Assembly: GCA_037178675.1 (NCBI GenBank)
Contig: JAYMGJ010000426.1
Location: forward strand, 1 to 64,000
DNA length: 64,000 nucleotides
Source of the DNA: Scleroderma bovista
Lineage: Eukaryota > Basidiomycota > Agaricomycetes > Boletales > Sclerodermataceae
Direction of reading: 5' to 3'
The position numbers and the translations under genes were made by a program. A model generated the notes under the pieces. That model had not been told where the DNA came from. It worked only from the letters and a program-made list of their open reading frames with translations, and did no database searches. This document shows, piece by piece, positions 39,468 to 51,382 of this stretch. The number at the start of each line of letters is the position of its first letter. Position 1 is the first letter of the stretch.

Positions 39468-42400
39468 TTAGGTGACGTAGAGCACTACTTGGCCGCCAGG
39501 ACGGAATGACTCAAATGCCATTTGCACGTCTTCAGTAGACCTGAGCGAAATCATGTCACCGTCCTCGTCTTTGTACTTCACCCGTAAAGGGCTATCTTCC
39601 CGGCGTGGGCCACAAAGACGTATCTTCTTTTCGACCTTGTCGACAAGGTCACTGAAATCCGTAGATCGAGGAACATGGATGACGAAAATATCTTCATTGT
39701 AATGAACCTTCACCTTGACAGGAGGGGACAAGCCGACATGTCCGCCTCCGCCATTGGGCGCTAGACTCTCAAATGTCCGCGGTCGAGATGTAACTGCTCC
39801 CCCAAGAGATGACTCGCTTGAGTCAAATGGCGTTATTGGTGATGTATTGGGCGATTCCTCTGACGACCCATGTGTTGACTGGCTGGACCCACTGCCACGC
39901 TTGCTTTGCGTAATAATAGATCCTTGCGATCGATGTGGCCATGTACTTGCGGCAGGAACTGGGGGAGGTGCAGCTATGGGTACATAGGCGCTAGGTTGGC
40001 TAGCGCTGCGTGAGCGGGTTATGGGAAAGGCACCGTTCGGAGATGGTGAAGGCGTCGCGCTTCGAAAGTCGCCTGCGTCATAGGTTGCCCTGAGTTGCGA
40101 CGAACTTAATTGGGAGTGTAAAGGCACTCGGAGAGGTCGAGTAAAACTATTGTCTGTGCTTATGCTTGTACTGGAGTCCACGCGCGGTGGTATTGGATGA
40201 TAGGTTGGTATGATAGCAGCAGCCGCACCAGGAGGCAGCGGAAGCGGTAAGTTCTGAGGTGTGACCCGATCCCGGCCATTTGTTGGATGTAGAGAAAGGT
40301 TTCTGAGATACGGAGAATGTGACATCGAAGATGAAGTCCTGTCGTGCACGTTTGGAAGAGGCGATCGGTGGGGCATTGAGACCGGAATGGATGCGTGGCT
40401 GTTGTGGGCGATAAGGGGAAGGCTACGTTCCGAAGCTCTGCGATTTGCAACCTCCTTGATCAAACGATTTATTTGGGATTCCCACTGTTTGAGTTGTTCT
40501 TCTGAGCGACACCGCAGAGTAAAAAATTCAAGGTCGTCATCCCCCCTCCACCAGACGGCCAGCGAATACGGAACAACATTGCTTGAACCTAGAAGAGTCA
40601 GATACACAAGTACTAATACTGATTAAAAAATAAACGTACCGACAGAAGTTCTCGGGGAAGATGGAATAGCCTGCGTCACATTGTTCAAAAAAATGCGACC
40701 CTTCAAAAGAAGGGGAGTATCCTTGTCTTTGTTCGGTACGGCCCCGGTTGCGGGTGAAGACATCGACTGTTTTTTCAAGATCGAGTTATTCTTGCTGGCT
40801 TTCTTGCCGTTTGGGGGTGGCGGTAGGGCTTCTTTGCAACACAGGATGATCTTTTCGAAAAGGAATACATGATATTCTCTGTCAACCTCCGACTTCGTGA
40901 CGGTGAAGATGTCGTCAAGTAAGAGATTGCCAAAGTTGGACAAGTGGTGACCCTTCCAGTCCTTTACGCGACTTTCAAGGTTTTTGACGGTTTGAAGATT
41001 CTCCTCCCGTCGTTGCGCTTCATTGATCTGATCCGCTATGCGCTTGGCTGCAGCGGAACCTGCCTGGAGCTCCTCATAATGAAGATAATCACTTGGAGAA
41101 GACGCCTTAATTAGGGACTGTGGGATGAAGCTAAGTATGCTAACGAGTCGGTCGAACTGCACGCACATCAAGAAGGAGTGGATATTTGCAGATGCGCTGG
41201 ATAGGCTTGATCAGAAACGCGGGTAATTCTGATTTGGCGTTGATCAGGTTATTGTGCACCTGAAAATGGCAAGTTAGGTTAGATATGGGAATTAACAAAA
41301 CCAAAGGGGCAACGTTCCAGTTGTCATGCCGACAAAGTACAACAACGCATGCAACGTACCTGCAGGTTCTGTTCTTCAGCAAGCATAAGTTCCACTGCAC
41401 TTGTGTAGTTTGCACAGTATGGTTCATACACCTCAAAATCATCCTCCTGCATTGTGATGATAACGTTTGCATAAGGGCAAATAAATAAATAAAAGCCAAT
41501 GCTTACGTGTTCCAGAAAGTGGAGACCCCAGCGCTGATCTTTCCATGGCAATTCTGCAGTGCCTTCTAGGCGAATTAGGAACTTTCTTTGGAAGTTCAAT
41601 AAATTGTTCAGGCCAGGGAAGAGCAGATGAATGGTGTCTTGATCTATCGTGTTGCTGTGGGATAACGCATTCGCGTATTTCTACTCAAGGTAAGGCAAAT
41701 ATCCACGAGCATACTAACCTACACACCTGCATGACCTCCAAGTCCTGGACGTATTTGCGTTCCGTTTCAACCATCTCTCTTATTATATTGTTACGAGCAG
41801 CTTCTCGAGCATTAGCAGGAACAGCAGTATTGGGAACGTCATTGATGAGGGAATCGATTGATTCTTGTGGTGTGAGCAGTTGTGGAGAAAGCGGAGGAGG
41901 CTCGAATATCTCGGGATGAAGGAGGTCGACAATAGTGGTGACGGTTTTTACGACCTACCAATTATCTGCGTGATGATGCAACTTCCTCTTGTACCAAGGC
42001 TACGTACCTTGACTAGACCATCAGTCGAATGACGCTCCCATAGGTCTGTAACCGTAAATTGTTCGCAATCCTGGACCTGTTTGATCCGCATGGCAAACAA
42101 CGCAATGGCGTGCTTCTTTGCGCGTTCATTGGAGACATCAAAAGTAGCGGCATCCGTATCGATGGAAATGGGAGGGTTAGGAAGAGGGAGCAGGTTGAAC
42201 AGGAAGCAAAGGGGAATGCCAAGAGAGAAGCAGTCCCAAAGCTGTGTGACGGGATCCGTTGACTGACGAAGGGAGCCGGTGGGGGACGAGAGGACAAAAA
42301 AATCGGAGAACTCCGGGATACGCATGAGACGGGAACGCAATGACGAGCATTGCTGGTAAAGAGAGGTAGACTGGGACGCAGCCTTGTTAAGAATATTGTT

Positions 42401-42475
42401 GTTGGCGACTGGGGTGTCAATGACAAGACCAGAGCTGGATGCAATTGATTTTTTACGACCGGGGACGTTGGCCAT
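39468..42475 (-). CDS. CDC24: Rho-GEF CDC24 (Cdc42 activator)
   Basis: Exons 42008-42475, 41727-41954, 41507-41680, 41360-41446, 41167-41259, 40640-41117 and 39468-40588 give 882 aa. Cdc24 loads GTP on Cdc42 at sites of polarised growth. The calponin-like N-terminal domain starts after YQQCSSLRSRLMRIPEF and includes DPVTQLWDCFSLG. The DH domain includes REMVETERKYVQDLEVMQ, FPGLNNLLNFQRKFLIRLE and AFLIKPIQRICKYPLLLD (the conserved DH helix). The PH region follows (WKGHHLSNFGNLLLDDIF ... YHVFLFEKIILCCKE ... ILKGRIFLNNV type). A long Ser/Pro-rich linker leads to the C-terminal PB1 domain (KVKVHYNEDIFVIHVPR ... LRVKYKDEDGDMISLRSTEDVQMA), which binds the Bem1 scaffold. The PB1 OPCA acidic motif (KDEDGDMISL) is intact. 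Confidence 0.96.
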
Positions 42476-47245: not shown

Positions 47246-47459
47246 GTGTGACGCGACTTCCAAATCAGGCAACATCGTGTCAGTACACAAAGTACCACTC
47301 TGGATCTTCGACGCTTTGCATCTTCGAGCTCCTGCATCGACGCCTGGGTCCAACGACCCCACAAGAGTATGTTTATTTTATTTTATCCATTTCATTGACT
47401 ATTTCTTCTTACAGGTCCTCTGCGCGCACGCCTTGTACCCATGGCCACCCACCAGCAGT

Positions 47460-47640
47460 GTCAATCATGATGCAGAACAACAACATGCGTGGCCAGCGAC
47501 ATGGCAGCATGACGATGGCACCAACGGCGACAACGAGGAGGAGGAGGACCGATGATGGCGACAACGCATGACATGAGGACGATGAGGGACACTGACGATG
47601 ACAACAGCGACAACGCACGACACGACGACAACAATGTAGT
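47460..47640 (-). repeat. Triplet-biased (GAC/AAC/ACG) repeat, opposite orientation
   Basis: The plus strand here shows GACAACG, GACGATG and GAGGAGG words, i.e. the complement of the bias at 46560-46965. If both belong to one family they are in opposite orientation. Confidence 0.4.
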
Positions 47641-47707
47641 CACATGGTAGAATAGAGTACTTTGTACAAATTATTTACTTCTAATATAGTAGATGGTGAC
47701 CTGTGAA

Positions 47708-47775
47708 TATACCCGTCGACGACATCCGTGGTGATATACACCCGGTGTACACCTGCGGGTCGACCCGTGCATATC
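47708..47775. repeat. ACCCG/CGGGT block with palindrome
   Basis: Contains the perfect 12-bp palindrome CGGGTCGACCCG at 47756-47767 and the near-palindrome ACACCCGGTGTACACC. Same word family as 47165-47245. Confidence 0.45.
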
Positions 47776-47935
47776 ATGGTTCTGTAATTGTTGTGGAGGG
47801 TACTGTCCTTCTGAACCCTCTGAAGAACTGACTACACTTTCCTACATCATGCGCCGTGCTGCATGCTCTTGACGTCCATTTGCCATTGTCACCCAACCTG
47901 CTTGTTTGGTTGCACAGAGCTTGGATGGTCTTTTA

Positions 47936-48017
47936 CAGCAGTTTGCATAAGTAATGGCACTCGCGACTTCGCCAAACAAATACAATTCATCGTGAGATTT
48001 CGTGTAGCTACCCCTAG
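47936..48017 (+). repeat. Left terminal inverted repeat (82 bp)
   Basis: Begins CAGCAGTTTGCATAAGTAAT and ends GTAGCTACCCCTAG. It matches the reverse complement of 50956-51037 at 81 of 82 positions. The transposase ATG lies 28 bp inside it. Confidence 0.96.
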
Positions 48018-48044
48018 GACTGTAGACTTTTAGCTCTCACAACT

Positions 48045-49114
48045 ATGGGCAACCGTAGAATTTCACCCGATGTCAAGCTCGCTGCCATCCATTTATACGA
48101 GCGCCGACTTCTACCTCTCCGCCAGATCCTTGAGTGTGTTGGATTTTCCCGGCGCACCTTCTTTCGTATCTTGAAGTTATTCAATGAAACTGGTGAAGTT
48201 GCCAAGCCCCGCAGCCTCGCTCTCAGCCGTCCGAGGACCTTCAATCACGAAGACCTCAACTACCTCCTCCAGCTCGTTTATCACCGGCCGAACTGGTTCC
48301 TCGACGAGCTTCAAGAGCTTGCGGAATCCAACCGTTTCATTTCAGTTCACTTCTCCACCATTCATCGTGAGCTTCAGCGTGCTGGCGTTTCCCTCAAAAA
48401 GCTTCGGAAGATCGCAAAGGAGCGTGATGAAGACCTTCGTGCTGATTTCATGCGGAAAGTAGCCCAGTATGCACCAGAGGAGATGATCTGGATCGACGAA
48501 ACCTCTAAAGATGAACGGACCTTGATTCGACGCAACGGTAGGGCCAAAAAGTCGCATCGTGCCAGCATGAAGGGGGTTTTTGTGAGAGGAAGACGGCTCA
48601 CGGCTGTTGCAGCACTGTCCATTGATGGGATAGTTGCTGGGCATGTTGTCGAAGGATCGCTTCGCCGCGCTGACTTTCTATCTTTTCTTGAGGATGCTGT
48701 GGTATGCTTTCTATTGCTATTTCATGTGATGGGCTGATTGCTATGTTTATAGCTCCCTCAATGCACACCCTACCCTGGTCCAAGAAGTATATTGATTATG
48801 GACAATGCACGGATCCACCATGGAGAAGATATCCTTGAACTCACGGCCCAATACGGTGTGTTCACACCCTATTTACTCTACTCATGCCGGTGACATCATG
48901 TTTCAATGCAGGCGTTAGATTGGAGTTCCTTCCTCCCTACTCCCCTGACTTGAATCCGATTGAGGAGGCATTTTCGAAGATCAAGGCGTGGATTCGTCGT
49001 CATGCGGACCTGCTTTCCCATGATGATGGAATCTTTTATGATCTACTACTTGCACTCGAGGTTATTACAGCGGACGATGCGCAAGGGTACATTCGCCACT
49101 CAGGCTACTTTTAG
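48045..49114 (+). CDS. Tc1/mariner-type DD34E transposase
   Basis: Exons 48045-48701, 48753-48855 and 48912-49114 give 320 aa. The N-terminus is a paired-type HTH: ISPDVKLAAIHLYERRLLPLRQILE with FSRRTFFRILKLF, then a second helix-rich part with RPRTFNHEDLNYLLQLV and STIHRELQRAG. The catalytic core has D151 in MIWIDETSKDERT, D236 in ILIMDNARIHHG and E271 in PYSPDLNPIEEAFSKIK; 34 residues separate the last two, hence DD34E. All three acids and the SPDLNPIE signature are intact, so the protein may be functional. Both introns are small (51 and 56 nt) with canonical borders and phases. It cuts and pastes the element at TA sites, in the nucleus. Confidence 0.95.
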
Positions 49115-49205
49115 CGGTACATTAGTGCAAAGCACTGTAAAATGTACACATAGCAAATGTTTTGTATTGTACACGTTGACCTGTCCACCCAACTTGAGAA
49201 AATTA
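49115..49205. other. Convergent 3' junction inside the transposon
   Basis: Only 91 bp lie between the two stop codons, so the 3' UTRs of transposase and passenger gene must nearly or actually overlap. Confidence 0.6.
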
Positions 49206-50918
49206 CTACACTCCGCACCATTGTAATACAGCATCTCGAAGCTGGGCGACCTCACCACGAAGAAGTCCGATAGCTTTGATGTCATCGAGCGACACAAAGC
49301 GTAGAGCATGGCTTGACGTGAATCCGTTGGACTGGAGCTTGATCTGTAATTCGTCAGAGAGGCTGTATGTGTGACAAAAATCAGCAAGTGAAAGGCGTGG
49401 ACCAAGGTTTGACTGTTGGGCGGCCGACAATAACATTGGTTCAGCGGAGAAGATGGAATTTGTCGCAGGTGTGACAGGTGGCTGCACTGCCAGCTGTTCC
49501 TGTGGACGACCTTGGAGCGTGTGGAGCAATTCTCCGAAGTTGAGGTTAACAGAGACTGGGGCATTGGTGGGGCCAGCCTGGGCATTGGCAGGGGTAGTCT
49601 GGGCGTTGGCGCTGGGGGGAGTCTGGGTATCTACCAACTTTCCCTTTGATCGTTCTAACTGATCACGTCGTTCCAAAAGAAGCGATTTCTTTCCCAGCTG
49701 TTCAGCCGTCGCACCATCGAACAATTTGTGATTTGGCGGCATCTCGAGTGTAGCAAATTCCGGGCTCTTCAGCTGGTGTACTGTGTAGTTAGAAGAATAA
49801 ATAAAGCTTTGATATATATCTACCATGGCTGCTGCCCAGCAGTCCAAGCGAGCAAAGTTGAGTGGAATGTGTGTTCCACCATCCGTTGCATTGATGTAAC
49901 AGTAGTTGCTGTCACAGCCGGGTTTCTTGTAGCATGCCCACCGGTTACGAATGCGATTGATATTGTCGTTGATCGGACGTTTGTCAGGATCGATATCAGA
50001 GGCCTTGGGGGCCTAGTGTTGCAACGATCAACCTAACAAACCAGGTTATGTGCTGAATACATACCTGTGTCTTCATTTTTTTGGCCTTCCGCTTTACATC
50101 AAGCCCAACTCCGTCGCTCTCTGAGCCAGAATTGATGATCTCGAGACCGTGGTTCTCTTTTTCCTTTGGATGCGATTTGCGCTGTCAATGGTGGTCAGAA
50201 AGTCGCATATATGCAGCATTGTAGTACGTACTTTTGCAAGCTGCACTGCCTTCAATTCTTGCACATACACGGTAGCTTGCTGATCTTTTGCCTTTTGAGT
50301 ACGTTCACAAAGTAAGTTGTAGTTGTCTTCATTTGTGATGGACAGCGGCTGGGGTGAGACACGAGGGATCACAAACGATACTTCGTAGTCTTCATAGGAA
50401 ATATAGTCGAGTTTCAATTTTTCATCGATCTTCACAAGTAGTTGTGCTTTCCATGTATCGAATGGAATGTCACTGTTGAGTTTGAGGTACGAATTGTGGC
50501 CGCGGCGCTTCTTCATTTCTTTGGTCCTTTCGGACGCGGGGAAGATCGAGAGGTTGAATGTGAATTTGATGGGCGCTGGTTGGACAGGCTCCTTGGGCCG
50601 AGGATTCTTCACTATAGAACACCAAATGAACAGTAATGACTAGAATCAATGCATATACGCACCTTTTTTGCCCTTGGAAGCAGCTGGAACCTCTACTGTT
50701 TGAGCATGAGCATCATGCTCTGCCAGGGTCTGCTCCAGGGCAGCTTCGTCAAGTTCACGGTCAATGCTGTCCCGGCTGAGCACCGAGTGGGAGCCTATCA
50801 TGGTTGACGAGCTGAGTTCCTCATCACTCATTGCGCTTGGTGAAGCTGGGCCTTCTGGACTGACAGGATCAGAGGTCTCGATGACGTCTGCATCTTTGTG
50901 ATTCTTTCGTGGCGGCAT
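49206..50918 (-). CDS. Transposon passenger gene, unknown: Cys cluster + SAM-like C-terminus
   Basis: Exons 50663-50918, 50232-50611, 50065-50181, 49824-50012 and 49206-49772 give 502 aa; introns are 50-52 nt and all phases fit. Residues 1-85 are acidic and Ser-rich. Residues 90-212 form a mixed alpha/beta-looking block (APIKFTFNLSIF ... YEDYEVSFVIPRV). Residues 213-251 are Lys-rich with a likely NLS (DVKRKAKKMKTQ). Residues 275-310 read RWACYKKPGCDSNYCYI...H, a CX5CX4C cluster with a nearby His that could bind metal, then LDCWAAAMLKSPEFATLEMPPNHKLF. Residues 340-445 are low-complexity. The last 55 residues (LSLADFCHTYSLSDEL ... LRFVSLDDIKAIGLLRGEVAQLRDAV) resemble a SAM domain. I recall similar W.C...C...CY/SAM proteins in many Agaricomycetes, without a function. 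Confidence 0.85.
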
Positions 50919-50955
50919 GGTTTACGAGTATGATAGAGTACAGTGAAGTGTCACG

Positions 50956-51037
50956 CTAGGGGTAGCTACACGAAATCTCACGATGAATTGTATTTGTTTG
51001 GCGAAGTCGTGAGTGCCATTACTTATGCAAACTGCTG
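50956..51037 (-). repeat. Right terminal inverted repeat (82 bp)
   Basis: Reverse complement of the left TIR with a single mismatch; ends ...CAAACTGCTG before the flanking TA. The passenger gene ATG lies 37 bp inside it. Confidence 0.96.
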
Positions 51038-51382
51038 TAATTCATACACATAATGTTGTTGAAATGACAATTTCGAGGCATCAGAAATGTAAATCACAAG
51101 GCTTTAGAAGGCATGGCCAACTTATGAATAACTGGGGTGGAGTAGTAAGACATTAACAAATGTTTGCGAGTTGGACAGGTTGTCCATCCAAGTCCAAAGA
51201 GGGTAGAAAACGCATATTTATTTTGTTTATTTAACAGCAACAGCAACCAATAGCACGTTCTTACGGTTTTAGTGATGTCATCAAGCCAACTCTTCGTCAA
51301 CATGTTCCGTTTCCTCAACGTCGTGCAACGTGTACAACTCAGGTCACACATTTCCATGATTTGAATTATTCCCCTCTCGGAC

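Follow-up and report, generated by a model that had tools for sequence, protein, structure and literature searches.

A putative old two-gene lineage of IS630-Tc1-mariner transposons in Agaricomycetes, and the candidate transposition helper that it encodes

Tc1/mariner transposons are the textbook example of a self-sufficient, one-protein system, and hence serve as gene-transfer tools across kingdoms. An element found in Scleroderma bovista carries, besides its transposase gene, a second intact gene, and this raises two questions: does the second gene belong to the element, and what does it do there? The element lies in a 64,000-nucleotide stretch of genomic DNA (contig JAYMGJ010000426.1, positions 1 to 64,000), referred to below as the window. 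The answer that we favor, at a probability of roughly 0.6, is that the element inserted recently and comes from an old lineage of two-gene IS630-Tc1-mariner transposons in Agaricomycetes, and that the product of its second gene is a self-associating protein that helps transposition.

The original prediction, made from the sequence of the window, described a young transposon with 82-bp terminal inverted repeats (TIRs) that differ at one position, a TA at both ends, an undamaged DD34E transposase gene and an undamaged five-exon passenger gene. This description holds in each of its parts. The coordinates are exact (Table 1), and the TIRs match at 81 of 82 positions; with the flanking TAs counted in, the inverted arms span 47933-48017 and 50956-51040, each 85 nt in length, and show 99% complementarity. 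TIRs and insertion at TA with duplication of this dinucleotide are traits of the superfamily. The target repeat has three paralogous copies (C40, C18 and C484) in which the sequences to the left and right of the element are directly adjacent and separated by one TA instead of two, so the element is a genuine insertion and a chance arrangement is ruled out. The repeat in which it is nested (window positions 47436-47935 and 51040-51281) is 98-99% identical to the three empty copies and also has more diverged relatives in the genome.

The transposase gene consists of three exons with no internal stop and is predicted to encode a protein of 320 residues. This protein matches Pfam DDE_3 with 94.2 bits (cut-off 28.6) and, in its N-terminal region, HTH_23 with 31.0 bits (cut-off 24.6), while its NCBIfam IS630 score is 169.6 bits (cut-off 100); a hand count on the translated protein places 34 residues between the second catalytic aspartate and the glutamate. 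Judged by its DDE_3 domain and DD34E spacing, its helix-turn-helix (HTH) region and the TIR and TA features of the element, the enzyme is a member of the IS630-Tc1-mariner superfamily. The second gene is convergent to that of the transposase and comprises five exons that are predicted to encode 502 residues, every intron being GT-AG and no stop being present. Spliced profile alignment reproduced these exons, which is a consistency check only, as the profile held the window protein together with 10 relatives.

Does the second gene travel with the element? In the genome (51.8 Mb, 850 contigs), searches revealed four copies of the window's family, termed family A within a grouping based on transposase and second-gene similarity: the window element and copies at C365 (98.7% identical), C677 (99.0%) and C477 (98.1%). 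All four carry both genes, the copy at C477, which ends at position 2884 and has one stop in each gene, doing so minus the N-terminus of the second; for the copies found, this answers the question, raised with the original prediction, of whether each has the pair. Both genes are stop-free in the window copy and at C677, whereas the second gene at C365 contains two stops and a 1-nt gap. The C677 copy (L009) has 1.28 kb inserted in one TIR (L009 3767-5044), and by eye this insertion contains many short CGTC/CACC-type repeats. Private differences number 85 among the four copies, with 9 in the window copy; C>T or G>A changes account for 82 of them and CpG sites for 72, and the elements thus appear to carry cytosine methylation and to be decaying at CpG. 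With 98-99% identical copies and 9 private differences, the window copy can be called young with fair confidence, in agreement with the recent move that had been proposed. The ratio of nonsynonymous to synonymous substitution rates (dN/dS) of the second gene within the family is 0.22-0.59 over six pairs, with few changes, nearly all of them CpG decay. Because the copies differ almost solely by this decay, which swamps selection, the comparison initially suggested as the main test is near-uninformative and was dropped in favor of pairs drawn from different subfamilies.

The association extends well beyond family A, and the element thereby departs from the transposase-only content usual for its superfamily. 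We inspected 44 loci, picked by matches to the transposase and second protein, with further family members also used as queries; the cluster totals that follow are lower bounds, and adjacency is known from this genome. Matches form at least 55 second-gene clusters and at least 68 transposase clusters. A transposase lies within 1.6 kb of the second gene in 38 of the 55 clusters, and the two are convergent in every one of these. The 17 second-gene clusters with no transposase nearby comprise seven 276-bp pieces, five other short fragments, a match at a contig end (C476), pieces of broken elements (C264, C595) and C32, where the second gene lies in two pieces and no transposase matches. None of the 17 matches the whole gene, most being judged from search matches alone within these lower-bound lists, and they include no host copy outside the element that is intact and unique.

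Related families share the architecture of the window element. Family B includes three near-identical copies with both genes open and with fully matching TIR arms of 72-74 nt (C418, C69 and C472:234k), plus C373, C590 and C595; family C is found at C386, C256 and C208; family D at C472:183k, C684, C493 and C631; family E at C354, C777, C60, C191, C43, C535, C264, C536, C135, C494, C582 and C453; and family F at C19, C15, C733 and C258, with remnants at C157 and C233. In 13 of 16 loci at which ends were measured, the element is bounded by CAG...CTG, is flanked by TA at either end, carries the two genes, in some cases as decayed remains, and is 2.84-3.23 kb long, except for C677 with its insert (the measured left end of L047 was set 11 nt too far out). 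Its outermost bases are CAGC at every end but one (CAGT, L029), and in most families the terminal CAGC is followed by a.GTTTGCA-like stretch. Ends were not found at L024, and two further loci contain short TIR-bounded, TA-flanked deletion derivatives of ~1.1 kb (L014 1745-2879 and L031 1532-2599), of which the second retains pieces of both genes and the first has neither in detectable form.

To what depth has the pair been inherited together? Second-gene profiles were compared with hhalign between three transposase superclades (A-D, E and F). The A-D profile matches that of E at 96.6% (E-value 6e-10) over 155 columns, from the Cys/His region through the C-terminal domain, and that of F at 88-92% (E-values 7e-7 to 3e-6) over ~255 columns, starting inside the PB1 part and reaching into the C-terminal domain; in 15 comparisons with shuffled columns the value was at most 1.9%, and against the transposase profile it was 0-0.2%. 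These sequence profiles show the second gene to be homologous in the three superclades. The E proteins also have, as read by eye, a PB1-like stretch at their start. At C673, open stretches in the convergent frame, chosen by eye, match the all-family second-gene profile at 82.7% (E-value 9.5e-6; eight letter shuffles gave at most 0.8%), the E profile alone at 2.8% and the F profile alone at 0.2%. The second gene that this locus (L054, C673:9301-10900) seems to hold is strongly diverged, has a PB1-type stretch and, judged by eye, ends in a SAM-like C-terminus, which hints that it and its transposase represent a fourth lineage.

Trees of the two proteins, read by the author for 12 representatives picked by the author from 37 loci with transposase models (L024 among them), have the same topology, and their distance matrices correlate with r 0.92, a value equaled in none of 10,000 permutations. 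The deep branches are weak, since identity among second proteins of different superclades is just 12-21%; within superclades the alignments are better, yet some supports are modest (62-94). Selection was assessed by dN/dS in 13 between-subfamily pairs. The six informative ones give 0.13-0.20 for the second gene (0.17, L035-L038; 0.14, L041-L047; 0.13, L041-L044; 0.20, L033-L035; and, with a model of L040 that is cut short by its locus, 0.15 and 0.17 for the two pairs that L040 forms with L035 and L038). The seeds that guided the gene models of E and F had been selected for their conservation, which may lower dN somewhat. Four close pairs at 0.21-0.60 involve few changes or decayed copies (0.21, L042-L048, 7 changes; 0.45, L022-L024; 0.47, L017-L021; 0.60, L017-L020, 6 changes), L046-L049 yields no ratio, having no synonymous and 9 other changes, and L042-L046 and the window-L022 pair are saturated. 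Over the same pairs the transposase gives 0.07-0.90 where computable, and 0 in L017-L020 on a single change. Models of decayed copies (for instance L010, the second gene of L011, L015, L019, L021, L023, L024, L028, L029, L036, L037 and L043) can skip stops through spurious introns and served for detection. Taken at the level of coding sequence, these ratios show that the second gene is under purifying selection, and the transposase gene is constrained as well.

Relatives of both proteins exist in other fungi. Two protein searches returned at least 24 second-protein relatives from at least six Agaricomycete genera (Leucogyrophana, Pisolithus, Paxillus, Suillus, Pholiota and Phanerochaete), annotated as hypothetical, uncharacterized or SAM domain-containing, and none on the viral contigs searched; the best 120 of 3,416 transposase relatives include proteins of 14 Agaricomycete genera. 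Phanerochaete sordida has both a transposase (P0039, 57% identical to that of the window) and a second protein (P0010, 31%), and the entries of both name a contig 1,222,123 bases in length, which suggests that they share a contig.

Structural modeling was used to gain insight into the second protein. The A-type protein is predicted to contain a PB1 domain, a segment with a Cys/His cluster and a W..PPN..F motif, and a SAM-like C-terminus, and the models give fair confidence in one fold of the assembly type. The model of a homologue, after structural realignment, has the PB1-type beta-grasp fold. The Foldseek list mixes PB1 domains (ranks 3, 7, 13, 14 and 17) with other beta-grasp proteins, its top entry is a superantigen-like protein, and PB1 becomes prominent only after realignment; Foldseek alone gave no match to the second-protein model at an E-value of 0.001 or better. 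No PB1 family was among the Pfam matches of the window protein, nor among the listed 25 of the 26 families matched by 23 relatives. At the C-terminus, the window protein matches SAM_EPH below the cut-off (E-value 0.0021; 18.2 bits against 27), while five of the 23 relatives match SAM_TNK (best E-value 0.014) and three match SAM_EPH (best 0.1). A sequence search of solved structures yielded weak matches only (NusA, E-value 0.34; the SAM domain of MAP3K15, 0.8). The Pfam scan of the second protein found no Fanzor/TnpB domain and no Myb/SANT match.

Table 1. Positions of the element and its parts in the window.
Feature	Position	Strand	Description
Element	47936-51037		3,102 bp; flanked by TA on both sides
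Left TA target-site duplication	47934..47935		TA beside element; single TA at three empty paralogous sites
Left terminal inverted repeat	47936..48017	+	82 bp; starts CAGCAGTTTGCATAAG
Transposase exon 1	48045..48701	+	HTH domains and first catalytic D; Pfam HTH_23, DDE_3
Transposase exon 2	48753..48855	+	Second catalytic D
Transposase exon 3	48912..49114	+	Catalytic E, 34 residues past second D; stop
Interval separating the stop codons of the convergent genes	49115..49205		91 bp
Second gene exon 5	49206..49772	-	PPNH.F motif; SAM-like C-terminus (AlphaFold2 model of exon); stop
SAM-like five-helix domain (predicted)	49218..49403	-	~aa 438-499; Pfam scan and AlphaFold2 model
Second gene exon 4	49824..50012	-	C-x5-C-x4-C-x9-H cluster and conserved CWAAAM motif
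Second gene exon 3	50065..50181	-	Basic linker, Lys/Arg-rich
Second gene exon 2	50232..50611	-	PB1-fold domain, by alignment to modeled homologue P0001
Second gene exon 1	50663..50918	-	Start; matching part of homologue model low-confidence
Right terminal inverted repeat	50956..51037	-	82 bp
Right TA target-site duplication	51038..51039		TA beside element; single TA at three empty paralogous sites

What, then, might the second protein do? We infer that it serves the element in transposition, and it would do so by multimerizing and thereby scaffolding or delivering the complex of transposase and DNA, with possible roles in the pairing of ends, delivery to the nucleus or tethering to the target. 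A multimerizing or scaffolding role is the likeliest because PB1 and SAM modules commonly mediate self-association or binding to a partner protein. Helper proteins act in this way in two-gene DNA transposons of other superfamilies. In PIF/Harbinger, which differs in superfamily and target site, the second protein is a Myb-like helper. More tentatively, the element could be an obligate two-component Tc1/mariner-type transposon in which the PB1/SAM-like protein polymerizes either on the element or on its target and sets the timing and place of transposase action, an arrangement that would predate, and have persisted through, the divergence of at least three transposase superclades. To our knowledge, neither a PB1/SAM-like protein of this kind nor a helper polymer has been described for the Tc1/mariner superfamily.

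Several observations weigh against a helper inherited with the transposase. The profile match of the second protein between A-D and E leaves out the PB1 part, and E and F, each of which matches A-D, match one another directly at only 0.8%. The second gene evolves much faster than that of the transposase, with A-B identities (window-L017) of 31% and 58%, respectively, and the SAM, RAD51 N-terminal and RpoA-CTD folds tie for the model of the C-terminal domain. Moreover, 30 of the 68 transposase clusters have no second-gene match. Seventeen of these match over less than 400 nt, two are at contig ends (C504, C722) and 11 are longer; among the last, C743 is truncated, C673 has the diverged second gene described above, no second gene was found in the 1.5-kb flank at C475 or in the 1.6 kb up to the contig end at C353, and the other seven are C64, C271, C331, C345, C458, C498:62k and C699.

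The best rival is that the second protein is an anti-silencing factor, its PB1 and SAM-like modules recruiting or blocking host complexes so as to counter DNA methylation or chromatin silencing; it ranks first among the alternatives because of the CpG decay in the family-A copies, which seem to be methylated, and the fast evolution of the protein would fit an arms race. We consider it rather improbable. The portion from the W..PPN segment to the C-terminus can be aligned across very diverged transposases, as would be expected more of a partner within the element, and the Pfam scan of the second protein contained no silencing-related family, although no search was aimed at anti-silencing proteins. 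Less probable still is a recurrent passenger, that is, a gene that is the element's own but serves the host or another mobile element and has no role in transposition. This would accommodate the transposase loci at which no second gene is detectable, but long co-divergence with one transposase lineage would be hard to maintain for an unhelpful gene, and no domesticated stand-alone copy was seen among the second-gene clusters of the genome. Finally, a one-off capture of a host gene carried as cargo, which the original prediction had weighed against a helper and for which one might cite the novelty of the protein in Tc1/mariner elements and the occurrence of PB1 domains in host genes, including a CDC24 gene in the same window, is very unlikely and was rejected: the four family-A copies, the homologues in the same convergent position in related families, the agreement of the gene trees and the survey of lone clusters contradict it and place the gene with the element.

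The original prediction also held that Tc1/mariner elements normally encode only a transposase and that a systematic two-gene lineage in basidiomycetes would be new. The fungal lineage is indeed systematic, and no description of it, or of a two-gene Tc1/mariner element with a PB1/SAM-like partner, was found in the open-licence literature searched; one correction is that multi-gene elements of this type are known, namely the ciliate TBE and Tec elements, Mariners that carry Fanzor genes, and MarCry-1_FO (PMC4724952, PMC7325037, PMC3627910, PMC3212892). TBE and Tec likewise combine a DD34E-type transposase with extra genes, and the three open reading frames (ORFs) of TBE are all under purifying selection (overall dN/dS 0.1-0.3) between TIRs of ~80 bp, akin to the 82 bp found here (PMC4724952, PMC7325037). 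However, TBE adds to its transposase a 22-kD ORF and a zinc finger-kinase protein of 57 kD, and Tec has a recombinase, whereas the fungal element has a single extra gene, set apart by its PB1 and SAM-like domain description; zinc finger-kinase and recombinase domains were found in neither of its genes, which are two and not three ORFs. Mariners with Fanzor, GIY-YIG or methyltransferase genes also pair a Mariner-type transposase with further genes and TA duplications, but by the published description elements of several superfamilies captured these cargo genes, and four related Mariner examples are single-copy (PMC3627910), in contrast to the co-inheritance seen here. MarCry-1_FO of Fusarium oxysporum is a fungal element that has TA duplications and in which a second gene accompanies that of a Mariner-type transposase; the partner, however, is a Crypton tyrosine recombinase and its TIRs are 16-bp (PMC3212892). 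Further afield, PIF/Harbinger and Pong are two-gene cut-and-paste elements with two ORFs, one of them the transposase (PMC5543537), though the protein described here lacks their Myb/SANT signature in the Pfam scan. The transposase exceeds the cut-off for the bacterial IS630 family, from which the element differs in being eukaryotic, intron-bearing and equipped with a second gene. A PB1 domain has also been gained by the transposon-derived plant protein MUSTANG-B (MUGB), in which an additional 5' exon supplies it to a domesticated gene of MULE origin (PMC8616336), whereas here it is part of a separate gene in mobile elements.

The retention of a second protein by a fungal lineage across such deep divergence suggests that helper dependence arose or persisted in Tc1/mariner elements too. 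The transposase and second protein form a natural pair for learning how transposition can be regulated or targeted, and the lineage provides a likely identity for Agaricomycete proteins that now bear only generic names.

Some minor observations concern fragments and neighbors. The 276-bp pieces (two at C1 and one each at C12, C181, C193, C489 and C546) all encode one and the same portion of an E-type second gene, six of the seven with equal score, and are probably a short non-autonomous derivative that spread. Two pieces on C595 (65302-66574 and 85571-86695; L025 and L026) appear to belong to one split B element whose second gene is broken near residue 468, and they lie 19 kb apart on opposite strands, as would follow from an inversion. 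Truncated transposases at C743:4314-4985 and C504:33039-33710 have equal scores and are seemingly the same copy, possibly through assembly redundancy. In the window itself, the host CDC24-like gene occupies positions 39468-42475 on the minus strand (Pfam CDC24 calponin, E-value 2.3e-13); its last open frame ends, by eye, in a PB1-like stretch, and its proximity to the second gene, ~8 kb away, is probably a coincidence.

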